Shown here piece by piece: positions 14,589-31,092 of a DNA stretch of 32,943 nucleotides (position 1 is its first letter; each line of letters opens with the position of its first letter). A program made the position numbers and the translations under genes. The stretch is from Thermincola carboxydiphila. GTDB taxonomy: Bacteria > Bacillota > Thermincolia > Thermincolales > UBA2595. Below the pieces are notes generated by a model, which saw only the letters and a list, made by a program, of their open reading frames with translations, did no database searches and was not told the DNA's origin. The stretch lies in NCBI GenBank assembly GCA_016841325.1, contig JAENZJ010000032.1, forward strand, positions 1 through 32,943, written 5' to 3'.

Positions 14589-17030
14589 TCAGGCTCCTGC
14601 GCCCACCGTATCCCGGGCCACAACAATTCCGTTGTCATCAGCATCGATAAGGAGTTTATCCCCTTTTTTGAAGGTCCCTGTGAGGATCTCCTCAGAGAGC
14701 CGGTCTTCCACGTATTTCTGGATGGCCCGGCGCAGCGGCCTGGCCCCGTACATCTGGTCAAAGCCTTCCCTGGCCAGGAACTCTTTGGCCTTATCGGTCA
14801 CCTCAATGATAAGGTCACTGTCCCTGAGCCTGGCGGCCACCTGATTAACCATAAGCTCAACTATTTGCTTAATATGGCTTTCATCCAGGGAATGGAAGAC
14901 AATTATTTCATCAATCCGGTTCAGGAATTCCGGCCTGAAGGTACGGCGCAGTTCATTAGTTACTTTATCCTTCATATCTTCATAACTCTTTTCCCTGCCT
15001 GCAGGTCTGAACCCAAGCGTTGTCTCTTTTTTCAGCATCTCAGCGCCGACATTTGACGTCATTATCAGTACCGTATTACGGAAGTCAACAGTACGTCCCT
15101 TGGCATCAGTCAACCTGCCATCCTCCAGCACCTGGAGCAGAATATTAAATACCTCCGGGTGTGCCTTCTCAATCTCGTCAAGAAGAATTACACTATAGGG
15201 TTTTCGCCTTACTGATTCAGTCAGCTGGCCCCCTTCATCGTAACCCACATATCCGGGAGGAGCCCCCACAAGCCTGGATACAGCGTGTTTCTCCATATAT
15301 TCCGACATGTCAATCCTGACCAGAGCATCCTCATCACCAAACAAAGCCTCTGCCAGAGCCCTGGCCAGCTCAGTCTTGCCAACACCTGTCGGTCCCAGGA
15401 AGATGAATGACCCTATAGGACGCTTGGGGTCCTTGAGTCCGGCCCTGGCCCGGCGAACAGCCCTGGACACTGCCTTAACCGCTTCATCCTGTCCGATAAC
15501 CCGCTGATGCAGGACCTCCTCCATCTTCAGCAGTCTGGCGCTTTCCTCTTCAGCCAGTTTGCTCACCGGAACCCCGGTCCAACTGGATACAATATGGGCA
15601 ACATCTTCCTCTTCGACAGTCTGCTTGGCAAGTCCTTTCTGCTTTTCCCAGTCTTTTTTGATGTTCTCCAGTTCTTCACGGAATTTTTGTTCAGTATCCC
15701 TTAAGCTGGCGGCCTTCTCAAATTCCTGGGCTGAAATGGCCGCTTCTTTTTCCTGGCGAATTTTCTCCAGTTCCTGTTCTTTGTCCTTAATCCCCGGAGG
15801 GGCCACATAAGTCTGCAGCCGTACTCTTGATGCAGCTTCGTCAATCAGGTCAATTGCCTTATCAGGCAAAAACCTGTCGGTAATATACCTGTCAGATAGC
15901 CTCACCGCAGCTTCGATCGCTGCATCAGAAATCTTGACCCTGTGATGCGCCTCATAGCGGTCCCTTAACCCGCGGAGAATTTCCAGGGCTTCTTCGACAC
16001 CGGGTTCTTCCACCATAATCGGCTGGAATCTCCGTTCCAGGGCAGGGTCTTTTTCAATATGCTTCCTGTATTCGTCAAGAGTAGTGGCCCCAATACACTG
16101 GAGTTCTCCTCGGGCCAAAGCCGGTTTCAGAATATTTGCCGCATCAATGGCACCCTCTGCAGCTCCAGCGCCAATCAGGGTATGCAGTTCATCAATAAAC
16201 AGGATGATGTTTCCGGCATTCCTGATTTCTTCCATGACTTTCTTTAGCCGTTCCTCGAATTCACCACGGAATTTGGTCCCGGCAACCACTGATGCCAGGT
16301 CCAGGGTAACCACCCTCTTCGACAGCAGGGTCTCAGGCACATTGCCCTGGTCAATTCTCTGAGCCAGGCCCTCAGCAATGGCAGTTTTGCCTACCCCGGG
16401 CTCACCTATCAGGACCGGGTTATTTTTGGTTCTCCTGCTTAACACCTGAATTACCCGTTCAATCTCTTTCCCCCTGCCTACTACAGGGTCCAGTTTACCT
16501 TCTTTGCCCAGGACAGTCAGGTCCCGGCCAAACTCATCAAGATTGGGGGTGGCAGTCGCGCCGTCACCGGGTTTTGCTTTTCCACCGGCCGGCTGGGCTC
16601 CGTTTAACATCCCCAGGACTCCCTGGCGGACAGACTTCAAATCCGCCCCGAGGTTCTGCAGAACAGTTGCCGCTACTCCCTCGCCTTCTCTGATCAACCC
16701 AAGCAAAATATGCTCAGTCCCAATATAATTATGGCCAAGGGTCCTGGCCTCATCAAAGGAGAGCTCCAAAACCCTTTTGGACCTGGGCGTAAATCCAATG
16801 TCCCCGATGGCTGTTCCGCCACCCTTACCGATAATCTTTTCTACTTCCTGCCTGACCCTTTCAGACTTAATGCCCAAAGAACGCAAAACCTTTGCGGCAA
16901 TGCCGCCGCCTTCTCCGATCAAACCCAACAGCAGGTGTTCGGTACCAACATAAGGGTAATTTGACCGCCTGGCTTCTTCCTGGGCCAGCATCAAAACCTT
17001 TTGAGCCCTTTCTGTAAATCTTCCAAACAT
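14589..17030 (-). CDS. clpC: ATP-dependent Clp protease ATP-binding subunit ClpC
   Basis: AAA+ unfoldase that feeds ClpP. Two N-terminal Clp repeats (residues 1-145: [18 protein letters not shown], then [21 protein letters not shown]), first Walker A GEPGVGKT, a short UvrB/C-type middle segment ([18 protein letters not shown]) typical of ClpC rather than ClpB, and second Walker [10 protein letters not shown] loop suited to ClpP docking is expected but not examined in detail. Start at the ATG at 17030, eight bases after GAGAGG; an upstream GTG at 17039 overlaps the mcsB stop and would add three residues. Length 813 aa. McsA and McsB are its adaptor/tagging partners, encoded just upstream. Confidence 0.96.
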
Positions 17031-17035
17031 AAGTT

Positions 17036-18106
17036 TCACCTCTCAATTGTAGTCATTTTTTCCCTGATAATTTCTGCCCGCAACAGGTCGCGTTCTTCGG
17101 CATTTAAGTCCCTTCCTGCCTTCTTGATGAGGAAGGCCGGTCTGGTAAGTATGATTAATTCATTGATCTGGGCAAAATTTAAGTTTTTGAGTACTCCCAG
17201 TTCCACTCCCAGCCTTAGGTTGGATATGTTTTTCAGCGCTTCCTGGGAAGTCATTACCCTGGAATGGCTCATTACACCAAAAGAGCGGAAAATCCTGTCT
17301 TCAAGCACATGTTTGTTATCTTTATAAATCTTTTCCCTGGTAGCCCGTTCCTGAGCAGCAAGCTGTCTGGTCACTGTAAAAAGGTTCTTTACAATTTCTT
17401 CCTCGGTATGTCCCATAGTGACCTGATTGGATACCTGAAAAATATTGCCATAGGCTTCGGTCCCCTCACCGTAATAACCCCTTACAGCAAGGCCAAGCTG
17501 GGCTATTGCGGCAACAACCTTCCCCACCTGTTTTGTCATTACCATGCAAGGCAGGTGCAGCATCACCGAAGCCCGCAGCCCTGTACCGACATTGGTGGGA
17601 CATGAGGTCAGGTACCCCTTCTTTTCACAAAAACTATAATCCAGCGTATTTTCCAGGATATCATCAGTCTCATTGGCCAGGTTCCAGGCCTCCTCCAGCT
17701 GCAGCCCCGGGAGGAGACACTGAATTCTCAGGTGGTCCTCCTCATTGATCATGATGCTGACAGATTCGTCTGCTGCCAGGACCACGGCACGGTTCTCCGG
17801 GTTTTCGATGTGATGAGGGCTTATCAGGTGCTTTTCCACTAATATTTGCCTTTCGGTGGTGGTTAATTCAGAGAGTAAGATAAACTCCGGCATACCTATT
17901 TTCTCCACAGCCTCAGTTTGCATGGCAGCAGTCCTGACTCCGTGCAGAATTTGTTCAGCCTGTTCTGCCGACATAAAATGCGGAAAAGGGTAATCCTTTA
18001 AATTTCTGGCCAGCCTGATCCTGGAGCTGATAACCACATCAATATCAGGCCCCGTACCCTCGGCCCATTTACTTTTGGCACTGGTCACAGTATCCTTTAT
18101 CGACAT
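17036..18106 (-). CDS. mcsB: Protein arginine kinase McsB
   Basis: Phosphorylates arginines on proteins, marking them for ClpC-ClpP and inactivating CtsR. It has the phosphagen-kinase fold: nucleotide-contacting [16 protein letters not shown] near residue 28, [11 protein letters not shown] for the catalytic acid and phosphate ligands, and the signature [13 protein letters not shown]. Length of 356 aa is normal. The AGGGGGTG ribosome site overlaps the end of mcsA; the genes are 11 bp apart. Confidence 0.96.
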
Positions 18107-18117
18107 CAGGGCACCCC

Positions 18118-18627
18118 CTAACCAAGTTTCTTTTCCAGGCCGCGAATCTTATCCCTTATTTCTGCAGCCCTTTCATATTCCTCGCGGCCAACGGCAGCCT
18201 TCAGTTCAAGTTTTAGTTCTTCGATCTCCTTACGTAATCCGATAGTACCTCCGGTCCTTTTGGGTATCTTGCCGGTATGCCCCGGATTACCATGGATCCG
18301 CCTCAGTACAGGTTCAAGTTTGTTCTCAAAAACCTCATAGCATTTGGGGCAGCCCAATTTACCCACCTGTGCAAACTGGGCATCTGTGAAACCACAGTGC
18401 TCACAGCGGACCGTCTCCTCCCTTTTTTCCGGCAGTGCATGACTGCCCGGTACAGGCTGGTTAAAGAGGTCGGCAAAGATGCTGTGCAGCATCCATTTGG
18501 GTTCACCGAAACCGGCATTTTCTTCATGAGCACATATGTCACAAAGGTTTGTTTCGGTCTTTTTTCCGTTGATAATTCTAGTCACATGGACTGTGGCCGG
18601 CCTTTTCTGACACTTCTCACATATCAT
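18118..18627 (-). CDS. mcsA: McsA, zinc-finger activator of McsB
   Basis: A 169-aa protein with four CxxC pairs (CEKC, CDIC, CEHC, CPKC) forming two zinc fingers, and a C-terminal UVR domain (EELKLELKAAVGREEYERAAEIRDKI) that contacts ClpC-type proteins. McsA activates McsB and helps modulate CtsR. I start at the ATG at 18627, nine bases after GGAGG. Here it follows clpB rather than ctsR directly. Confidence 0.94.
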   Translation of the reverse strand: MICEKCQKRPATVHVTRIINGKKTETNLCDICAHEENAGFGEPKWMLHSIFADLFNQPVPGSHALPEKREETVRCEHCGFTDAQFAQVGKLGCPKCYEVFENKLEPVLRRIHGNPGHTGKIPKRTGGTIGLRKEIEELKLELKAAVGREEYERAAEIRDKIRGLEKKLG

Positions 18628-18705
18628 CCCGGGATCCCTCCTTCTTTGATTATAGATCACTCAGAAATTGAATTTCCTTATGCACCCCCGGTCATTTCCG
18701 GGAGC

Positions 18706-21300
18706 CTATGCCTTGTCAATGATCAACCCCGTGTCACTGCCTCTCAGGACAGCAGTATCCCCCGGAAGGAGATCTCCCCTGATAACCCGCCGGATAAAGG
18801 GGGACTCCTCTTCCTGCCCGACCAGCCTTTTTAAGGGGCGGGCGCCGTATGCTGCCTCATACCCTCTTGATGCCAGGTAGTCAAGGGTACTATCCTTATA
18901 GTGTAACCTGATTCCCACAGAGGCTTCCACATGCTGGGCCAGCCTTTCCAGCAGGAGTCCGGCGATTTTCCGGACATGCTCCGGTTCAAGGGCATGGAAG
19001 ACTACAATCTCATCAACCCGGTTGAGAAACTCAGGTCTGAAGTGCTGCTTCATGATGTTCAGGACGTTGTTCTTCATCAGGTTAAAATCCCCGCCGCGTT
19101 CCTGGTGTGCCAGTATCTCCTGGCTGCCCAGGTTTGAAGTCATAATCACAACTGTATTCCTGAAGTCAACAGTACGCCCGTGCCCGTCTGTAAGCCTGCC
19201 GTCATCCAGTAATTGCAGCAGCACATTAAAGACATCGTGATGTGCCTTTTCAATCTCATCCAGTAGTATAACCGAATAAGGCTTTCGCCTTACAGCTTCT
19301 GTCAACTGACCGCCCTCCTCGTAGCCGACATACCCGGGAGGAGCCCCGATCAGCCTGGAGACCGTATGTTTCTCCATGTATTCAGACATATCCAGCCGGA
19401 TCATATTGCGTTCATCATCAAAGAGGGCCTGTGCCAGGGCCCTGGCCAGTTCAGTCTTGCCAACACCGGTCGGTCCCAGGAAAATAAAAGAACCAACAGG
19501 CCGGTTGGGGTCCTTAATCCCGGCCCTCGCCCGGAGTACGGCATCAGCAACAGCACGTACGGCTTCATCCTGCCCGATAACACGCTTGTGAAGTTCCTCA
19601 TCAAGGTGCAGCAGTTTTTCCTTTTCACCTTCCAACAGCTTGCTGACCGGTACCCCTGTCCAGCGGCTGACTACCCTGGCAATATCCTCAGCATCTACCT
19701 CTTCTTTTAAAAGCATCCCGTTTTTCTGTTTTCCAGCCAGGTACTCTTCCTCTGCTTTTAACTGTCTTTCAAGGTTATCAAGGCGGCTGTATTTTAACTC
19801 TGCCAACCGGTCCAGGTCATACTCGCGCTCAGCCCTCTCCATTTCCTGCCTGGTCCTTTCAATTTCTTTCTTTAAGCTGCGCACCCTGGAAATCGCCTCT
19901 TTTTCCACCTGCCACTGGGCCTTCATGCCGTCAGCCTCACTACGCAGTTCAGCCAGCTGTCCCCTGATCTTTTTCAGGCGCTCTCCGGAGGCCTGATCCT
20001 TTTCTTTGCTCAGGGCCGCTTCTTCGATTTCCAGCTGCATTATCCTGCGTGTGATTTCATCGAGCTCAGTCGGCATACTGTCAATCTCAGTACGCAGTTT
20101 GGCTGCCGCTTCATCCATCAGGTCAATAGCCTTATCAGGCAGAAAACGGTCTGATATATAGCGGTCCGAGAGTGTTGCCGCCGCCACAATGGCACTGTCC
20201 TGAATCCGCACCCCGTGGTGTACTTCATAGCGCTCCTTCAGTCCTCTTAAAATGGAAATGGTATCCTCAACTGAGGGAGAGTTAACCAAAACCGGTTGGA
20301 AGCGACGTTCCAGAGCAGCATCTTTCTCTACATATTTCCTGTATTCATTTAAAGTAGTAGCTCCGATTGTACGCAGTTCACCCCTGGCCAGCATGGGCTT
20401 TAGGAGGTTCCCCGCATCAACGGAACCTTCGGCAGCGCCGGCGCCAACCACTGTATGCAGCTCATCAATAAACAGGATTATTTTCCCTTCTGACTGCTGG
20501 ACCTCTTTAAGTACCGCCTTCAGCCTTTCCTCAAATTCCCCGCGGTACTTGGCGCCTGCTACCAGTGCTCCCATGTCCAGACTGATGAGACGTTTATCCT
20601 TTAATCCTTCAGGGACGTCGCCGGCAACAATCCGCCGTGCCAGTCCTTCAACAACGGCAGTCTTCCCAACCCCCGGTTCTCCGATAAGTACCGGGTTGTT
20701 TTTGGTCCTCCGGGAAAGAATTTCGATAATCCTGCGGATTTCATCATCACGACCGATAACCGGGTCCAGTTTTCCTTCACGGGCCAGTTTGGTAAGGTCT
20801 CTGCCGTATCGTTCCAGGGCCTCATAGGTTTCTTCAGGGTTTTCTCCGGTGACCCTTTGGTTTCCCCTTACCTCTCTCAGTGATTTGAGCAGGTTTTCCC
20901 GGGTAAGCCCGGCCTGTGCCATCGCTTCCCTGGTCTCAGGCTCCCCTTCTTCAAGGAGGGCCAGCAACAAATGTTCCACACTGACATAATCATCTTTCAT
21001 GTCCCGGGCTTCCTTCTCAGCCCTGGCCAGGACACGTGCCAGACCGCTTCCCATTAAGAGAGAACCTTCGTAGCCGGTGACAACCGGGATTCTGTCCAGG
21101 AGCTGGGAGACCCTGGCAGCAAACATATCAGGATTCACTCCGGCATGTTCCAGAAACCGGGGCGTCATTCCTCCTTCCTGATCCATCAGGGCAGCCAGCA
21201 GGTGTTTTCCGGTAAGTTCCTGGTGATGCCGTTCCGCAGCCAGCTGCTGAGCAGCAGAAATGGCCTCCCTTGATTTTTGGGTAAAACGGTTAAAATCCAT
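18706..21300 (-). CDS. clpB: ATP-dependent disaggregase ClpB
   Basis: An 864-aa Hsp100 chaperone that works with DnaK to solubilise aggregates. Clp N-domain (residues 1-145), first AAA+ with GEPGVGKT, a long coiled-coil middle domain (about residues 400-525, rich in E/K/R) that separates ClpB from ClpC, and second AAA+ with GPTGVGKT. Start ATG with a GGGGGCG ribosome site, 19 bp after ctsR. In Bacillus-type genomes ctsR is followed directly by mcsA; here clpB is inserted between them and so should share CtsR control. Confidence 0.96.
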
Positions 21301-21318
21301 ATTTACGCCCCCTTTCCT

Positions 21319-21786
21319 TTATTTTTTGTGCCTCAGTAATACCATTAACATTGACTTCAAAAGCACCGCCCTGTTCCTGCGGGCCTCGGGATGGCCATGG
21401 TCAGGTGCGGCCACCTCGATTACGGTTTCCATGAGGTGGGCTTCCCGCCTGGTAATAATATCTTCTTCAAAGAGATGGCGAATCAGGCCAATGGCTTCAT
21501 TCATGCCAATCTGGTCACCTATCTTTTCATAGACAAGATCAAGCAGGTCTTCAGATTCCTCCAGGGGAATCCTGATAATACGGATGAAACCGCCACCACC
21601 CCTCCTCGTCTCGACAATATACCCCCTGTTTGAAGAAAACCTGGTACTCAGGACATAATTAATCTGAGAGGGTACACAGCTGAATTTTTCGGCCAGCTCA
21701 CTGCGGCGGAAAACAATCGCCCCACTGTTACTCCTGCCCAGTCTTGCCTTTATGTATTGTTCAATGATGTCACTGATATTTGCCAT
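21319..21786 (-). CDS. ctsR: Transcriptional repressor CtsR
   Basis: Class III heat-shock repressor. The N-terminal winged helix-turn-helix (NISDIIEQYIKARLGRSN to RSELAEKFSCVPSQINYVL) is followed by the beta-wing glycine-rich RRGGGGFIRI that reads the DNA minor groove, and a helical C-terminal dimerisation domain. I use the ATG at 21786, six bases after AGGGGG; an ATG at 21792 sits directly on the ribosome site. CtsR boxes overlap its own promoter, so autoregulation is expected. Confidence 0.96.
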   Translation of the reverse strand: MANISDIIEQYIKARLGRSNSGAIVFRRSELAEKFSCVPSQINYVLSTRFSSNRGYIVETRRGGGGFIRIIRIPLEESEDLLDLVYEKIGDQIGMNEAIGLIRHLFEEDIITRREAHLMETVIEVAAPDHGHPEARRNRAVLLKSMLMVLLRHKK

Positions 21787-21811
21787 ATGCATCCCCCTGC
21801 CATACTCTTAG

Positions 21812-22234: not shown

Positions 22235-24031
22235 ATGCTAAAACTATTTAAAAAGGACCTGGTCTTTCTCCACGCTCCAAGTGTCTACGATTTCAGAAAA
22301 GATACCATTATGTTTGGACCGATAAGTGATGTTGTTCCTTCATCTCCCACCTTTGAGATGTATCCCGTGGGAATAACCAGTATCGCTGAGACCCTTGAGC
22401 ACAATGGCTTCAATGTACAGATTGTAAACGTTGCCTACCAGATGCTGAGAAATCCTGACTATGATGCCGAAAAGGTCATCGCCGCCATGGACCCGGTCGC
22501 CTTTGGCATTGACCTGCACTGGCTGCCTCATGTCCATGGAAGTATTGAACTTGCCAAAATCTGTAAGAAGCATCACCCCGATACTCCGGTAATTTTCGGG
22601 GGTTTATCTTCCTCCTATTATCATGAGGAACTGATTTCTTACCCATTTGTGGATTTCGTTGTCAGGGGCGACAGCACCGAAGAACCAATGCTCCAGTTAA
22701 TGAGGGCCTTAAGATACGGGCTGCCCTTTGACAAGATTCCAAACCTGACCTGGAAAAAGACTGACGGTACCCCTGTGGTTAACCCGTTGACACATGTGCC
22801 CGAAAACATTGATTATATTTCGGTGCCCTGTTACAGTTATGTGGTACGTTCAGTGTTTAAATATGCAAATCTGCATAATACCGTGCCTTATCTTGACTGG
22901 TTAAAATATCCGATTACTGCCCTGCTGACAGCACGGGGATGTACCCAGAACTGCTCAATATGCGGCGGATCTGAATTCGCCTATAAAAGGGTCTGCAACA
23001 GGGACAAGCCGGCATACCGGTCACCCCAGTCTCTGATTGAGGATATCAGGCTGATCCAGAAGCTTGGCCAGGCCCCGATTTTTGTGCTTCATGACCTGCG
23101 CCAGGCAGGCCCCGAATATGTGGACGAATTCTTCAGCCTGCTAAAAAAAGAGAAGGTAAAAAATGAGCTGATTATAGAATTATTTTGGGAAGCCGATGAT
23201 GAATATTTTGCCAAAATTGCGGATGCAGTGCCAAAATTCAGCCTGGAAATGACTCTGGAAACCCATATCGAGTCTATCCGCAGGATGAACGGAAAATTTG
23301 CCTGTTCCAATGAACAGGTGGAAAGCACCATTGCTTCAGCCTTTAAATACGGCTGTCGTAAAATTGACATCTTTTTCATGACCGGTATCCCCAAGCAGAC
23401 CTATGAACAGGCCATGGACTCAATTAATTACTGCCGTCACCTGCTGAAAAAATTCGATGGTGATAAAAGACTGGCCCTTTTTGTTGCACCATTGGCCCCA
23501 TTTCTGGATCCGGGATGCCTGGCCTTTGAGTTTCCGGAAAAATACGGTTACAAAAAGTTTTGCCACACCCTTGAAGACCATTATCACGCCCTCACCAAAC
23601 CGAGCTGGAAACACATCCTCAGCTATGAAACCGACAGTATGACCCGTGATGAAATTGTACGCTCCACCTATGAGGCTGCCCTAAAGCTTAATGCCCTGAA
23701 ACGCGAATACAACCTCATCGATGAGGATGTTTTCAGGCAGATAGAATTCAGAATAAGCAGCGCCCAGGCTGTAATGGATGAGATCGACCGGATTATGGAG
23801 ATTGAGGACGAAAGCCGGAAACAGGAAGCAATGAAAGAACTGAAAACCAAAGTTGAACAAATCAACAGGCATACAATCTGCGGCAAAGATGAACTGAAGT
23901 GGCCTATCACACAGAGATTTGGCAATATCGTTTCCCTGGCTTCAGTGTTCACCAGGCTCTTTTTCACTGAAATGAAGCTTTTCTATAACAGGGCCCGGCT
24001 TTTGTTAGGTCAGAAAATGCGTCCGATGTAG
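22235..24031 (+). CDS. Cobalamin-binding-domain/radical SAM protein, paralogue 1
   Basis: A 598-aa cytoplasmic protein. Residues about 10-190 form a Rossmann-like B12-binding domain (YPVGITSIAETLEHNGF, DLHWLPHVHGSIELA, PDTPVIFGGLSSSYY, VDFVVRGDSTEEP). A radical SAM core follows with the 4Fe-4S motif CTQNCSIC (Cys236, Cys240, Cys243), and a long helical C-terminal extension contains TICGKDELKWP. The DLHWLPH segment differs from the canonical cobalamin DxHxxG motif, so bound B12 cannot be assumed. It resembles the B12/radical-SAM family that I recall as Ta0216-like, whose reaction is unknown; that assignment is tentative. Ribosome site GAGGGG. It pairs with a close paralogue 122 bp downstream, and the pair sits on the strand opposite to the ctsR operon. 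Confidence 0.85.
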   Translation: MLKLFKKDLVFLHAPSVYDFRKDTIMFGPISDVVPSSPTFEMYPVGITSIAETLEHNGFNVQIVNVAYQMLRNPDYDAEKVIAAMDPVAFGIDLHWLPHVHGSIELAKICKKHHPDTPVIFGGLSSSYYHEELISYPFVDFVVRGDSTEEPMLQLMRALRYGLPFDKIPNLTWKKTDGTPVVNPLTHVPENIDYISVPCYSYVVRSVFKYANLHNTVPYLDWLKYPITALLTARGCTQNCSICGGSEFAYKRVCNRDKPAYRSPQSLIEDIRLIQKLGQAPIFVLHDLRQAGPEYVDEFFSLLKKEKVKNELIIELFWEADDEYFAKIADAVPKFSLEMTLETHIESIRRMNGKFACSNEQVESTIASAFKYGCRKIDIFFMTGIPKQTYEQAMDSINYCRHLLKKFDGDKRLALFVAPLAPFLDPGCLAFEFPEKYGYKKFCHTLEDHYHALTKPSWKHILSYETDSMTRDEIVRSTYEAALKLNALKREYNLIDEDVFRQIEFRISSAQAVMDEIDRIMEIEDESRKQEAMKELKTKVEQINRHTICGKDELKWPITQRFGNIVSLASVFTRLFFTEMKLFYNRARLLLGQKMRPM

Positions 24032-24153
24032 AATATATCTATTTACGCCTCATCAGAGTTTGTGATAGAATTAATTTACAGTGTTTGACCTTCTTGTTTT
24101 TTTGTGATCGGTTGTGAAATGTGTTGCAAACTCTGGAATGGGGGGAGATACCA

Positions 24154-25947
24154 ATGTTTCGTAAAGATTTAGTTTTCTTGCACGCCCCAAGTGTTTATGA
24201 TTTTCGCAAAGATACCATTATGTTTGGGCCAATCAGTGATGTTGTTCCTTCTTCACCAACCTTTGAAATGTATCCCGTTGGAATTACCAGTATCGCTGAT
24301 ACCCTGGAACAAAACGGTTTTAATGTACAGTTGATTAACCTTGCTTACCAGATGCTGCGGAATCCTGATTATGACGTCGAAAAGGTAATTGCCGGGCTTA
24401 ATCCCAGGGTATTTGCCTTTGACCTGCACTGGCTGCCACATGCCCATGGCAGTATCGAAGTCGCCAAAATAGTAAAAAAATATCACCCCGATACACCAGT
24501 CGTATTTGGCGGCCTTTCAGCATCTTATTACCATGAAGAACTGGTTTCATACCCCTGTGTGGATTATGTTGTCAGGGGGGACTCCACAGAGGAGATTGTG
24601 AAACAACTCGTTATCGCAATCAGGCAGGGGGCACCTGTAGATAAAATCCCCAACCTGACATGGAAGAATGCGGACGGTGAAGTCGTTGTTAACCCCCTCA
24701 CCCACGTTCCGGATGATATGGACTATGCCTCCATTCCAAGTTACAAATATGTCGTCCGCTCTGTTTTCAAATATGCCAGTCTGCATAACACCGTTCCCTA
24801 TGCAGACTGGTTAAGGTATCCCGTGACAGCGCTGCTGACTTCCCGCGGCTGTACCCAAAACTGTTCCATCTGCGGGGGGTCTGCATCGGCATATGAAAAA
24901 ATCTGCAACAGGTCAAAACCGGCCTTCAGGTCTCCCAAAGTCTTGCTTGAAGACATCCTTTTTCTGCAGAACCTGGGGCAGGCACCGATTTTTATCTTAA
25001 ACGATTTCCGCATGGCAGGTCCCGAGTTTACCGAAGAATTCCTGACACTGCTGGAAAATTCCAATATAAAGAATGAACTGGTCTTTGAGCTGTTTTTCCC
25101 GGCCGGTGACGAGTTTTTCGGAAGACTGGACAAAGCCCTGCCCAAATACAGTATAGAGATTACCCTGGAATCACATATTGAACGAATTCGTAAGTTCAAC
25201 GGCAAACTCCCGGTTAGCAATGAAAAAATTGAAGCGACCCTGGAATCAGCCCTGAGAAATAACTGTGGTAAAATAGACATCTTCTTTATGACAGGCATTC
25301 CCAAACAGTCTTATGAAGATGCCGTTTCTTCAGTAGATTACTGTGCTTATCTTCTCGATAAATTCCATGGTGATAAGCGACTGAGTTTCTTTGTGGCCCC
25401 GCTGGCACCCTTCCTTGACCCGGGATGCCGTGCCTTTGAAGAGCCGGAAAAGTTCGGTTACAGGCAGTTTTATCGTACTCTTGAAGAACACCGCCAGGCA
25501 CTTACCATGCCCAGTTGGAAATACATCCTCAGTTATGAGACTGACTCCATGACCCGGGATGAGATCGTTGAAGCAACTTATGAAGCTGCCCTGAGGTTAA
25601 ATAAGGTGAAAAAAGAATACGGCCTGATTGACGAAGCACTTTACACTGATATAGATTACCGCATCAGAATGGCCCGCGATATAATCAGGGAAATTGATAA
25701 TATAGTTAAACTTTCCAAAGATCAACAAAAAGCGATGCTGCAGCAGATGCGCAAAAAAGTTGAAGCAGTTAATAAAGCTACCATTTGTGGCAAAGATGAA
25801 CTCAAGTGGCCCTTTAAAGAAAGGCTGTCCAATGGTTTCACACTTTTTAGGGTCCTGGTAGGTCTGTTTTTTAAAGAATGGGCTCTCCTGTTCAACAGGA
25901 TCAGGCTTACATTAACAGATGATAATTTCCGGATAGTCAGCAAGTAA
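24154..25947 (+). CDS. Cobalamin-binding-domain/radical SAM protein, paralogue 2
   Basis: A 597-aa protein, very similar over its entire length to the preceding gene (most residues identical in the first 60 positions and in the C-terminal extension), with the same domain order. The cluster motif is CTQNCSIC (Cys233, Cys237, Cys240). DLHWLPHAHGS, RGDSTEE and TICGKDELKWP are shared; the C-terminal 30 residues and several core loops differ. I start at the ATG at 24154 because GGGGGGAG lies seven bases upstream and the N-terminus then aligns with paralogue 1; an upstream GTG at 24121 lacks support. A strong terminator follows. Substrate unknown. Tandem retention of two intact copies suggests specialised or partnered roles. 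Confidence 0.85.
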   Translation: MFRKDLVFLHAPSVYDFRKDTIMFGPISDVVPSSPTFEMYPVGITSIADTLEQNGFNVQLINLAYQMLRNPDYDVEKVIAGLNPRVFAFDLHWLPHAHGSIEVAKIVKKYHPDTPVVFGGLSASYYHEELVSYPCVDYVVRGDSTEEIVKQLVIAIRQGAPVDKIPNLTWKNADGEVVVNPLTHVPDDMDYASIPSYKYVVRSVFKYASLHNTVPYADWLRYPVTALLTSRGCTQNCSICGGSASAYEKICNRSKPAFRSPKVLLEDILFLQNLGQAPIFILNDFRMAGPEFTEEFLTLLENSNIKNELVFELFFPAGDEFFGRLDKALPKYSIEITLESHIERIRKFNGKLPVSNEKIEATLESALRNNCGKIDIFFMTGIPKQSYEDAVSSVDYCAYLLDKFHGDKRLSFFVAPLAPFLDPGCRAFEEPEKFGYRQFYRTLEEHRQALTMPSWKYILSYETDSMTRDEIVEATYEAALRLNKVKKEYGLIDEALYTDIDYRIRMARDIIREIDNIVKLSKDQQKAMLQQMRKKVEAVNKATICGKDELKWPFKERLSNGFTLFRVLVGLFFKEWALLFNRIRLTLTDDNFRIVSK

Positions 25948-25976
25948 TGGGAACATCCTCTTTCTATAATTATAAA

Positions 25977-26016
25977 GGGAACGCACATCAGGTTGTGATG
26001 TGCGTTCCCTTATATT
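25977..26016 (+). terminator. Terminator of the radical SAM pair
   Basis: Perfect 14-bp stem (GGGAACGCACATCA / TGATGTGCGTTCCC) with a 5-nt loop, followed by TTATATTCTT. It starts 30 bp after the second gene. Confidence 0.88.
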
Positions 26017-26309: not shown

Positions 26310-27701
26310 TTACAGCCGCGCTGCCTGTTTCTCCGGTGACCCAGGCGCCCCGTTATAATTGGTAGCTTTCAGGGCACCGGTGGGGCACATGACAAAGTCC
26401 CCATAAGCCGACATACCATGCTCACCGATGTCAAGCCCTTCGATTTCCTCTTCCGGCTTAACCCTGAGCCCGACAACAGCCTTAATGGTTTTGAAGAGTA
26501 TTGAGGCTGTGACCACAGTCCAGGCAAATACCGCGACCACACCGGTCAACTGGGTCACCAGGAGTCCGGTGCCGCCTCCATAAAGCAGTCCGCCGTCAAC
26601 GGCAAAGAAACCGACCATGATTGTTCCGAAGGCACCACATACACCGTGAACTGAAATTGCTCCCACAGGGTCATCAATCTTAACTACCCGGTCAAAAAAC
26701 TCAACTGAAAATACCACCAGGATACCGGCCATGGCCCCAATCAGGGCCGCTCCCACAGGGCTGACAGCGGCCGTACCTGCTGTAATACCAACCAAACCGG
26801 CTAGGGCTCCGTTAAGGGTCATACTGACATCAGGCTTTTTATACCTGAGCCAGGTTACGATCATGGTTAAAATCGCCCCGGAAGCGGCTGCCAGGTTCGT
26901 AGTAACGGCAATAGTAGCAATATCAGGAGTTGTTCCCGATACAGTGCTTCCCGGGTTAAATCCAAACCAGCCAAACCAGAGAATAAATACCCCCAAGGCA
27001 CCCAGGGTAATATTATGCCCCGGAATAGCGTTTACTTTACCGTCTTTGCTGTACTTGCCAATGCGCGGTCCCAGGACCAGGGCGCCAATCATGGCAGCCC
27101 AGCCGCCCACCGAGTGGACTACCGTTGAACCGGCGAAATCTATCATTCCTCTCTCAGCAAGCCAGCCGCCGCCCCAGATCCAGTGGCCGACCACCGGATA
27201 GATTACAGCACTGATAATAACACTGTAAATCAGGTATGAAGAAAACTTGGTACGTTCCGCCATGGCACCGGAAACAATAGTTGCCGCAGTAGCACAAAAG
27301 ACAGTCTGGAATATCAGGAAGGCCGGCAGCGGAATCGAGAGGCCCAGGTGTTCAAAAGTCCCTGTGGTCCCGAAACCAGTACTCCCAATAAGGCCTGCCT
27401 TATCGACTCCAAACATGAGGGCAAATCCCAGGAGCCAAAAAACTATTGAACCGGCGGCAAAATCCATCAGGTTTTTCATGATAATATTTCCTGCATTCTT
27501 GGCCCTGGTAAACCCGGTTTCAACCATGGCAAACCCGGCCTGCATGAAAAACACCAGGAATGCTGCGACAAGGGTCCAGACAGTGTCTATGGCCACAGCA
27601 TTGGACTCGGCAGTAGGACCGTCGGCTGCCCAGACAACTCCGGTACTCAATAATAATAGTAATATAGTTATTAATGAAACACGCAAAAACGTTTTAAACA
27701 T
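26310..27701 (-). CDS. Ammonium transporter (Amt family), copy 1
   Basis: A 463-aa Amt/MEP channel conducting ammonium across the membrane. The N-terminal signal peptide ends near VVWAADG, followed by about 11 hydrophobic helices. Family marks include FFMQAGFAMVETGFTRAKNAGNI, the first pore histidine in TVVHSVGGW, the second in ISVHGVCGAFGT, and FGWFGFNPGS. A cytoplasmic C-terminal tail of about 55 residues follows, ending in an unusual hydrophilic stretch after CPTGALKATNY. Ribosome site AAGGAGGAG. It follows glnB on the same strand after a leader with two hexaloop-hairpin modules, so it is probably co-transcribed with amt2-glnB but separately attenuated. P-II proteins block Amt channels by binding on the cytoplasmic side. 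Confidence 0.95.
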   Translation of the reverse strand: MFKTFLRVSLITILLLLLSTGVVWAADGPTAESNAVAIDTVWTLVAAFLVFFMQAGFAMVETGFTRAKNAGNIIMKNLMDFAAGSIVFWLLGFALMFGVDKAGLIGSTGFGTTGTFEHLGLSIPLPAFLIFQTVFCATAATIVSGAMAERTKFSSYLIYSVIISAVIYPVVGHWIWGGGWLAERGMIDFAGSTVVHSVGGWAAMIGALVLGPRIGKYSKDGKVNAIPGHNITLGALGVFILWFGWFGFNPGSTVSGTTPDIATIAVTTNLAAASGAILTMIVTWLRYKKPDVSMTLNGALAGLVGITAGTAAVSPVGAALIGAMAGILVVFSVEFFDRVVKIDDPVGAISVHGVCGAFGTIMVGFFAVDGGLLYGGGTGLLVTQLTGVVAVFAWTVVTASILFKTIKAVVGLRVKPEEEIEGLDIGEHGMSAYGDFVMCPTGALKATNYNGAPGSPEKQAARL

Positions 27702-27749
27702 TACTGTCTCCTCCTTAATGTAATGTGATATAATTTTATTTATAGGTAA

Positions 27750-27834
27750 GCAGAAATCGCTCTCTGACAGGAAGACGCCGAATTCCCACCAAGAGAGCGA
27801 CTCTGCTCTACCAACGCAAGGTACAACTTTATAC
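27750..27834 (-). promoter_or_regulatory. amt1 leader module 2: tandem hexaloop hairpins overlapping a long hairpin
   Basis: RNA-sense minus strand. P1 is GTAT-AAAGTT-GTAC (27821-27834, one GU pair) and P2 is AGAGC-AGAGTC-GCTCT (27794-27809). Both have 6-nt loops with A at position 1 and G at position 4, the hallmark of ANTAR-protein binding sites. P2 overlaps the 5' arm of a long hairpin (GCAGA and CGCTCTCT arms, 27750-27806), so the two folds exclude each other. The long hairpin lacks a clear U tract, so whether it terminates is uncertain. Its apical part contains GGGAATTCGGCG, which is shared with the amt2 leader. Confidence 0.6.
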
Positions 27835-27846
27835 TTTACGGGGTAC

Positions 27847-27914
27847 TAAAAAAGACGCTTAAAGGGTTTTTTGAATTCCCTAAAAGCGTCTTTGCTCTTG
27901 ATACATCTTAGTAT
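27847..27914 (-). promoter_or_regulatory. amt1 leader module 1: hexaloop hairpins and intrinsic terminator
   Basis: RNA-sense minus strand. P1 is ATAC-TAAGAT-GTAT (27901-27914), P2 is AAGAGC-AAAGAC-GCTTTT (27882-27899). P2 overlaps the 5' arm of a terminator, GACGCTT..AGGG / CCCT..AAGCGTC followed by six T (27847-27890). P2 and the terminator are mutually exclusive, the arrangement of ANTAR-controlled antitermination. P1 has G at loop position 4 but T rather than A at position 1. It lies 34 bp after glnB with no visible promoter in between. Confidence 0.68.
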
Positions 27915-27947
27915 GCATATTCAGTTACCCAACCCAGGACCGCTTTC

Positions 27948-29706
<1,759 letters not shown>

Positions 29707-29742
29707 CGGCGTCACCTCAAACAAAAAAATTATATGCTTAAA

Positions 29743-29800
29743 CAAAAAAATACTCTCCTTGGGGAACCGGCGCCAATTCCCGACAGAGAGCATCTTTGCT
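29743..29800 (-). promoter_or_regulatory. amt2 leader module 2: hexaloop hairpin overlapping a terminator-like hairpin
   Basis: RNA-sense minus strand. A P2-type hairpin AGC-AAAGAT-GCT (29789-29800; loop A1 and G4) overlaps the 5' arm of a hairpin with CTCTC/GAGAG outer and GGGAA/TTCCC inner stems, followed by TATTTTTTT (29743-29790). No convincing P1 partner was found upstream. The apical GGGAATTGGCG is shared with the amt1 leader. Confidence 0.5.
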
Positions 29801-29860
29801 TAACCCATGAGAACCACAGTGAACTTAAGGGCATGAAAAACTGCTGAGGATATGCAGACT

Positions 29861-29926
29861 AAAAATAAAAAGCGCTTTTCGAAAACTTCCGAAAAGCGCC
29901 ATTGCCAGCAGATACGTCAATGTATC
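29861..29926 (-). promoter_or_regulatory. amt2 leader module 1: hexaloop hairpins and intrinsic terminator
   Basis: RNA-sense minus strand. P1 is GATAC-ATTGAC-GTATC (29911-29926; perfect 5-bp stem, loop A1 and G4). P2 is GGC-AATGGC-GCT (29895-29906; short stem, loop A1 and G4). P2 overlaps the 5' arm of a strong terminator, GCGCTTTTCG/CGAAAAGCGC followed by TTTTTATTTTT (29861-29899). It lies about 20-80 nt after the predicted transcription start. Confidence 0.7.
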
Positions 29927-29945
29927 AAATATTTAATTCAGACTC

Positions 29946-29974
29946 ATTTTAGCATGGTCCGCTTTGGCTGTCAA
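29946..29974 (-). promoter_or_regulatory. Sigma-A promoter of amt2-glnB
   Basis: Minus strand: perfect TTGACA, 17-nt spacer, TAAAAT. It sits upstream of the attenuator modules, leaving a leader of about 235 nt. A 13-bp palindrome ACACAAATTGTGT (29984-29996) abuts the -35 on its upstream side and could be an operator. Confidence 0.78.
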
Positions 29975-30034
29975 TGCTTTTTTACACAAATTGTGTTCTC
30001 ACAGTTTTGAAGTATTTCAACTTAAGTATAGCAA

Positions 30035-30973
30035 TTATGCCAGGAACAGGGCCGATGCCAGTTGGTATAATTCTGCCGCATAATCCTCTATCAGCTGTCT
30101 GTTAAAAATTTTATTCCGCCACTCATCCGGAATACCCTGCAAACCGTAATATGCTCCTGCCAGCTGCCCGTATACAGCACCGGTTGTATCTGCATCATCA
30201 CCCAAATTCACGGCTGCCAGCGCCCCGTCCCGAAACGACTCTGTCCTGTAGAATGCCCAAAGTGCAGCCTCAAGGGAACGCACTACATAACCGCTGCCCT
30301 GAATCGCCGGAGGGTCATTTCTTTTAAAAGAACCGGAGGCCACTTCCGCTATGGCCGGATGAAGGGGACTGCTTTCCCAGGCGCCCTCTGCAGGTGAAAA
30401 CAGCTCAGATAAAAGTTCATCTTTGGAAAAACCTATTACTGCCCCCACAATGAGGCCCCCCAAATACCGGCAGGCATCTACTGCTGTTATAGCCGCATGT
30501 GTAGTCCGGGAGCTTTCACCCGATTTCTCCAGGGCCTCTGCAGGATTTTTCGCATAAAACAGGGGAACCGGAGCCAGACGCATTATTGACCCGTTTCCGG
30601 CACTCAGGGGGTCACTGGAACCACAGTATGGTTCCCCTGTACGTTGGAAGCGATGCAGGGCTGCCTGAACCGTATTCCCGATATCAAAACACCTTCCGGT
30701 ACTGCTCAGGTAACCCTCCTGGTACCACCTCAGGTATCTTCTCAATTGGTCAATGGCATCAAAACCTCTGCATTTTAGCAGGCTCTCAGCCAGGCATAGT
30801 GCCATTGAGGTATCATCTGTCCAATGACCCGGGGCAAGGTTGAACGCCCCCCCGCCTATCATGCCTTCTAAAGGTACAAAAGTCCCCGGTTCCCGAAATT
30901 CCAAAGGCATGCCTAAGGCATCACCAACAGCCAGCCCCATAAGACTTCCCCGATATCGTTCAATTATCTCCAT
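30035..30973 (-). CDS. ADP-ribosylglycohydrolase family protein (DraG-like)
   Basis: A 312-aa binuclear-metal hydrolase that removes ADP-ribose from protein or small-molecule substrates. The N-terminal [19 protein letters not shown], metal ligands WTDDTSMAL (residues 51-59), [14 protein letters not shown], and the C-terminal [22 protein letters not shown] are the family motifs; all metal ligands appear intact. DraG is the member that reactivates ADP-ribosylated nitrogenase iron protein. The neighbourhood of two amt genes and glnB, together with a shared leader type, points to a nitrogen-related role, but the substrate is not shown by sequence. I use the third of three adjacent ATGs, six bases after GGAGG. 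Expressed from a promoter at 31306-31334 through a leader of about 325 nt. Confidence 0.88.
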
Positions 30974-31092
30974 CATCATCCTCCATGTTTGCTACCCCAG
31001 TATTACTATTCGAACATGGTTTAAAAATCATCAATCAAATGATTAAATGATCATTAAATATAGCGCCTTTGCCAAAGCTGTCATCATAGAAG

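Follow-up and report, generated by a model that had tools for sequence, protein, structure and literature searches.

Why does Thermincola carboxydiphila keep, side by side, two genes for a radical S-adenosylmethionine (SAM) protein, and what could they do? The copies, A and B, are found in the stretch of 32,943 nucleotides analyzed here (contig JAENZJ010000032.1 of assembly GCA_016841325.1, from now on the window). Both are full-length, lie on the same strand and are 66% identical in amino acids, and for both of them TIGR04190 (B12_SAM_Ta0216) is the only NCBIfam family above its cut-off, with a match that spans 565-575 residues. The genes and their main marks are the following.

22235..24031, + strand: copy A, TIGR04190 B12-binding/radical SAM protein of 598 amino acids (737.3 bits, cut-off 500)
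24154..25947, + strand: copy B, TIGR04190 paralogue of 597 amino acids from the ATG at 24154 (765.3 bits, same cut-off), sister clade of A
22940..22963, + strand: CxxxCxxC motif for [4Fe-4S]/SAM of A (C236, C240, C243)
24850..24873, + strand: CxxxCxxC motif of B
25975..26011, + strand: hairpin of 16 pairs, similar to an intrinsic terminator, 3' of B

The cluster motif reads CTQNCSIC in A and B alike. The mechanical open reading frame of B opens with a GTG at 24121, and homology backs the ATG. We looked for a terminator-like site in the stretch between A and B and saw none. Two intact paralogues sharing one terminator, as described by an earlier reading of the sequence (here the original prediction), are thus confirmed by the reading frames, the motifs and the hairpin.

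The family is ordinary by name, its name and model assign no function, and the specific proposal that we make comes from context. The genes of relatives are found inside respiratory-quinone operons, and so the pair may well methylate a quinone. We give about an even chance to TIGR04190 being a class 1 cobalamin-dependent radical SAM enzyme that acts as C-methylase of the menaquinone ring, another radical change being less likely, and a somewhat better chance to its taking part in some way in quinone biosynthesis in the lineages with operon linkage. In such a reaction cob(I)alamin would be methylated by one SAM, another SAM would be cleaved at the CxxxCxxC cluster to give a 5'-deoxyadenosyl radical, this radical would activate the quinone or its precursor, and the methyl would move from methylcobalamin to carbon. 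Quinone redox potential sets what an anaerobe can respire. If the proposal is true, a second, B12-dependent route would account for the methylated quinones of metal reducers like Thermincola and of further lineages, and a family of nameless function would gain one, with a prediction from gene to quinone that is testable.

The linkage appeared in a survey of 111 family loci, in which quinone genes were searched by tblastn over stretches of 7–20 kb per locus (the whole window in its own case). At 24 of them (L072, L074, L133-L149, L154, L155, L157, L160 and L173) a MenG/UbiE, polyprenyl diphosphate synthase or MenA-like gene was located at 200 bp or less on the same strand. They include 22 of the 42 Actinomycetota loci (these 42 come from 41 genomes, every one of the 43 carriers except G466 and G506), one of the three from Spirochaetota (L173, the others being L070 and L172) and L072, with a MenA-like gene at 16 bp. 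Beyond 200 bp, such genes were found at 473 bp in L166 and at 2.5 kb in L167. Hidden Markov models (HMMs) identified the neighbors as UbiE (TIGR01934, 262 bits, cut-off 158), polyprenyl synthetase (PF00348, 225 bits) and UbiA (PF01040, 118 bits), and UbiE, again by HMM, was the immediate downstream gene in 10 Actinomycetota genomes, G103 included. A gene often found upstream is HepS-like, its profile matching the N-terminal part of the HepS-MenG fusion of Thermincola (hhalign probability 96, E 2e-9), and a second upstream family (cluster 6) matched the same fusion weakly (69.6). Besides, an amidohydrolase resembling 5'-deoxyadenosine deaminase, although below the cut-off of that model, was near the family gene in 10 loci; an enzyme of this type could return to use what SAM leaves behind when it is cleaved. 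The original prediction had found no pathway named by the flanking genes. This is true of the window, with CtsR/Clp/McsB/RadA-like genes on one side of the pair and ammonium transporters on the other, but the operons of relatives do name one, isoprenoid quinone biosynthesis. Two minor observations belong to these neighborhoods. For the UbiE beside the family gene at L136:6787-7494 the best model was the methyl-plastoquinone MpqE (279 bits, under its cut-off of 335), and multihaem cytochromes c were seen by eye beside or near the family gene in several lineages, at L070, L081, L083 and L137.

Thermincola itself has a futalosine menaquinone operon on contig C23 of the window genome. MqnC and MqnE score there over their cut-offs, and it also includes a MqnP-like UbiA prenyltransferase, the fusion of a HepS-like domain to MenG (L193:8636-10207) and, by eye, UbiX-like and MqnA-like genes, while another, free MenG (L194:8236-8964) lies by itself on C44. 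TIGR04190 was carried by 14 of the 101 relatives of the window, by 55 genomes in a Bacillaceae family of 121 and by 42 of the 198 from Actinomycetota. Among the 101 relatives, MenG/UbiE was present in 13 of the 14 carriers vs. 32 of the 87 non-carriers (Fisher p 8e-5, a value that takes no account of common descent, although a single lineage supplies 8 of these carriers). The sole carrier without UbiE, G025 (82% complete), has MqnC.

The name Ta0216 derives from Thermoplasma, a microbe that makes a methylated menaquinone (thermoplasmaquinone), and Thermincola belongs, we assume, to the class Thermincolia. In one survey, Thermincolia and Coriobacteriia are reported, at class level, to make methyl- and/or dimethyl-menaquinone (MMK/diMMK); ring methyl groups are said to tune the redox potential of the quinone, and the detection of the known methylated-menaquinone genes is rated unreliable (PMC13386864). 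Eggerthella lenta is described in another paper as having menaquinone-6 (MK-6) and MMK-6 (PMC9686372). Our literature searches found nothing on the quinones of named Thermincolia species or of Neobacillus/Mesobacillus, nor, judging by titles and the beginnings of abstracts, any paper that connects quinone methylation with a B12 radical SAM protein.

Sequence searches place both proteins in the radical SAM superfamily (PF04055, 48.8 and 37.8 bits, cut-off 29.5), with the B12-binding domain PF02310 also above the Pfam cut-off in A and B. Among the best NCBIfam matches outside the family were the models of HpnR, BchE and HpnJ, B12-radical SAM enzymes of lipids and tetrapyrroles, at 39-60 bits, far under their cut-offs of 481-650. 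Sequence and profile searches of the PDB gave no match at E<=0.01, and relaxing the threshold to E<=10 brought up nothing beyond weak alignments with TsrM and TokK. A characterized member was looked for in the literature under TIGR04190 and Ta0216 and none was found. The family is thus as uncharacterized as the original prediction had it, and no orthology to a characterized enzyme was detected. To the family model, which both proteins match, the present analysis adds two copies and a quinone context.

The predicted structure tells more about the type of enzyme, and three further features are needed here.

22511..22531, + strand: DLHWLPH of A, residues 93-99, in the loop after strand 3, with the invariant His95
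24421..24441, + strand: DLHWLPH of B, residues 90-96
23927..24010, + strand: long C-terminal helix of A (residues 565-592) in the AlphaFold2 model

The AlphaFold2 model is a confident one (predicted local distance difference test 91.6, predicted template modelling score 0.92). The strands of its cobalamin domain are at residues 9-13, 61-65, 89-93, 119-122 and 141-143, followed by a hairpin (171-174/180-182) and, at the end of the chain, by C-terminal helices. This is the architecture of class 1 cobalamin-dependent radical SAM enzymes (five-stranded Rossmann domain, hairpin after strand 5, barrel and helical C-terminus), a class defined with OxsB, TsrM and TokK by an N-terminal Rossmann cobalamin domain, hairpin, barrel and C-terminal helices in PMC13331322. 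The best matches among solved structures had Z scores from 17.7 to 21.3, with TsrM at 21.3, CysS at 21.0, AprD4 at 20.9 and MgmA at 20.3, and included OxsB and TokK; those of TsrM, CysS and AprD4 lie within 1 of each other. Over the whole chain TsrM, TokK, CysS, OxsB and MgmA share with A the Rossmann cobalamin domain, the hairpin and the helical C-terminus, but in the aligned parts they are only 10-16% identical to it. The long C-terminal helix possibly makes a membrane or partner contact in the modelled protein.

The motifs DLHWLPH and TICGKDELKWP are present in both copies, as had been noticed, but they are not special to the pair. In alignment A1 (89 of the 98 rows of the tree described below, excluding two split-gene rows, rows with long extensions and some near-duplicates) H95 is invariant and W96 and H99 are found in at least 90%, so that DLHWLPH is a hallmark of TIGR04190, and the C-terminal ICGKxELKWP is the majority consensus across the family. 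The idea that DLHWLPH takes the place of the DxHxxG cobalamin signature was discarded, because the motif follows strand 3 (89-93) and not strand 1 (9-13); it is therefore the lower-face loop of class 1 enzymes and not a lost DxHxxG. In MetH the cobalt-binding His is located in the loop after strand 1 (PMC13331322), and in A the corresponding residues 14-44 hold no DxHxxG, which sets it apart from the base-off/His-on type of MetH. The same source describes that in OxsB and TsrM the residue beneath the cobalt is supplied by the loop after strand 3, and that in TokK a Trp from the loops of strands 1/3 occupies this place. At the strand-3 loop TIGR04190 has an invariant His-Trp, vs. Arg in TsrM, Trp in TokK and Asn in OxsB (PMC13331322), and in the weak profile alignments to TokK and TsrM the register agrees only roughly. 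The use of B12 had been put in doubt by the original prediction; the Pfam match, the Rossmann fold of the model and the strand-3 loop favor it.

Several results weigh against a menaquinone methylase. Quinone genes were found by tblastn at none of the 8 loci of the lineage of the window and none of the 50 from Bacillaceae over the stretches covered, nor within 200 bp on the same strand at any of the 7 remaining ones, and the Thermincola pair stands outside the quinone operon of its genome. A cobalamin riboswitch (Rfam) was looked for in the window and 17 other loci and none appeared. In Spirochaetota UbiE was present in 2 of 3 carriers vs. 49 of 146 others, not a significant difference, and in Actinomycetota it was rarer in carriers (28/43 vs. 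128/155, p 0.02; the 43 include G517, below the cut-off). This negative association is due to one clade of 13 carriers (G388, G417, G429, G441, G452, G463, G474, G485, G495, G517, G528, G549 and G560), where MenG/UbiE, MqnC and MenD were searched and found in no genome. All 13 carry a UbiA-type prenyltransferase, MenA-like by eye in G441 and G560; either the substrate range of the family is wider or the ring is obtained otherwise. Of all the counter-evidence, this clade weighs most against a menaquinone role being universal. AprD4, which is no methylase, fits the fold as well as the methylases do. Class C radical SAM enzymes have a HemN-like architecture without a cobalamin domain, and the MMK of Thermincolia could come from the class C MqnK/MenK instead. 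MqnK, MenK and MenK2 would resemble TIGR04190 in the proposed product, methyl- or dimethyl-menaquinone (PMC13386864), but the latter has the PF02310 domain and belongs to another radical SAM branch, outside class C. Finally, for Anaerosoma and Parvivirga, two Coriobacteriia that may or may not carry TIGR04190, quinones are given as not detected (PMC9686372). Other genomes (G102, G293 and G075, and loci L225 and L226) had UbiE and a UbiA-type gene with MqnC and MenD absent, possibly by an unrecognized route to the quinone head group or by assembly gaps.

The same data bear on the substrate and the reaction. It is unlikely, although it is the alternative that survives best, that some other prenyl lipid or a membrane molecule is the true substrate, in which case the Actinomycetota operons would have nothing but the polyprenyl supply in common with it and the two Thermincola genes would play no part with quinones. 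The clade of 13 with its UbiA-type genes would be explained in this way, like the lack of quinone genes beside the family gene in the lineage of the window and in Bacillaceae; however, it is MenG/UbiE itself, and not just prenyl synthases, that is directly downstream in the 10 Actinomycetota genomes, and MenG accompanies all but one of the 14 carriers among the relatives of the window, G025 having MqnC. More doubtful is a quinone-pathway enzyme of the cobalamin radical SAM kind with a reaction other than methylation: the quinone, or its isoprenoid tail, would be oxidized, cyclized or rearranged, as other substrates are by BchE, OxsB and AprD4. The operon evidence fits it equally, the models of BchE and HpnR rank high among the matches outside the family and AprD4 is structurally level with TsrM and CysS, but the overmethylated menaquinones of Thermincolia and Coriobacteriia, as reported in PMC13386864, point to a methyl.

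Whatever the reaction, the duplication is old and has been retained. Intact A/B pairs were found in G000-G006 and G009, i.e., 8 of the 10 genomes of the family of the window and its sister family (f1 and f2), and were missing from G007 and G008, both only 61-63% complete. The A copy of G001, from the same genus, is 95% identical to that of the window. We built a tree with 98 of the 119 family proteins (near-duplicates removed) and 3 outgroup rows, using a quick method with supports by the Shimodaira-Hasegawa-like approximate likelihood ratio test (SH-aLRT); split-gene fragments from L187 and L190 were excluded and the longer parts retained. The six A rows (support 99) were sister to the six B rows (support 100), with a support of 94 for this relationship, and both were nested in a clade of 15 rows (support 97) that also takes in L042, L080 and L081, each of them single-copy. 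As A and B are sister clades across f1 and f2, the duplication predates the split of the two families, which answers the question of age posed by the original prediction. A recent duplication was rejected by this topology and by the 66% identity with synonymous sites near saturation. The ratios of nonsynonymous to synonymous substitutions (dN/dS) against two close relatives were 0.035 and 0.031 for A and 0.039 and 0.039 for B (L037 and L079, the only orthologue pairs with unsaturated dS; two B rows of L078 were ignored). By these sequence comparisons both copies are under purifying selection, and the decay of one of them was rejected with dN/dS of 0.03-0.04 in both; a degenerate copy was not seen in close relatives either, the eight pairs being intact. 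In Bacillaceae there is a separate pair of TIGR04190 clades, at separate loci, and many of the 55 carriers have two. At the loci examined there (L098, L099 and L174-L190) the two clades were found, and the copies of L187 and L190 are split between frames.

What differs between A and B is concentrated in one part of the protein.

23051..23269, + strand: radical SAM barrel segment rich in fixed A/B differences (residues 273-345 of A)

The comparison used 6 of the 8 pairs. Columns conserved in the family (at least 95% of the other 77 A1 rows) were kept 71 of 71 in all six A and 70 of 71 in all six B, the cysteines and His95 included in both. A total of 292 columns are fixed in each of the copies, and 24 of them differ between the two; the outgroup residue was in A at 15, in B at 5, and 4 were undecided. 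Residues 273-345 hold 11 of the 24 differences in 40 fixed columns (p 1e-4, for a region picked after the list was seen) and residues 1-222 only 3 in 121. This suggests that B has an altered substrate site over an unaltered cobalamin domain, and lends some support to the two related substrates that had been proposed. One gene was duplicated in the ancestor of the two families, A keeping more of the ancestral residues and B changing mainly in the barrel segment, which makes it probable that B works on another position of the ring or takes the product of A as its substrate. A fuller scheme, tentative and rather unlikely in all its parts together, would have A and B as B12 radical SAM methylases acting in turn (from menaquinone to methyl- and then dimethyl-menaquinone), independent of the class C MqnK/MenK, with His95 under or ligating the cobalt, in a His-on geometry from a loop other than that of MetH. 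The heteromer of the original prediction, taken as one complex of A and B with an active and a structural or regulatory subunit, seems improbable, because, even if the genes are adjacent, jointly retained and share one terminator, all but one of the conserved columns are kept in both and the same phylum has relatives with only one copy (G013, G025, G047, G059, G075 and G097).

The rest of the window has some peculiarities of its own. At 14589-21792 there is a CtsR operon coding for CtsR, a Clp ATPase of 864 amino acids, a 180-amino-acid reading frame, a McsB-like kinase and a ClpC-like ATPase, the Clp ATPase of 864 amino acids being a second large one, between CtsR and the McsB-ClpC part. At 26310-30979 a tandem pair of ammonium transporters adjoins an ADP-ribosylglycohydrolase gene.

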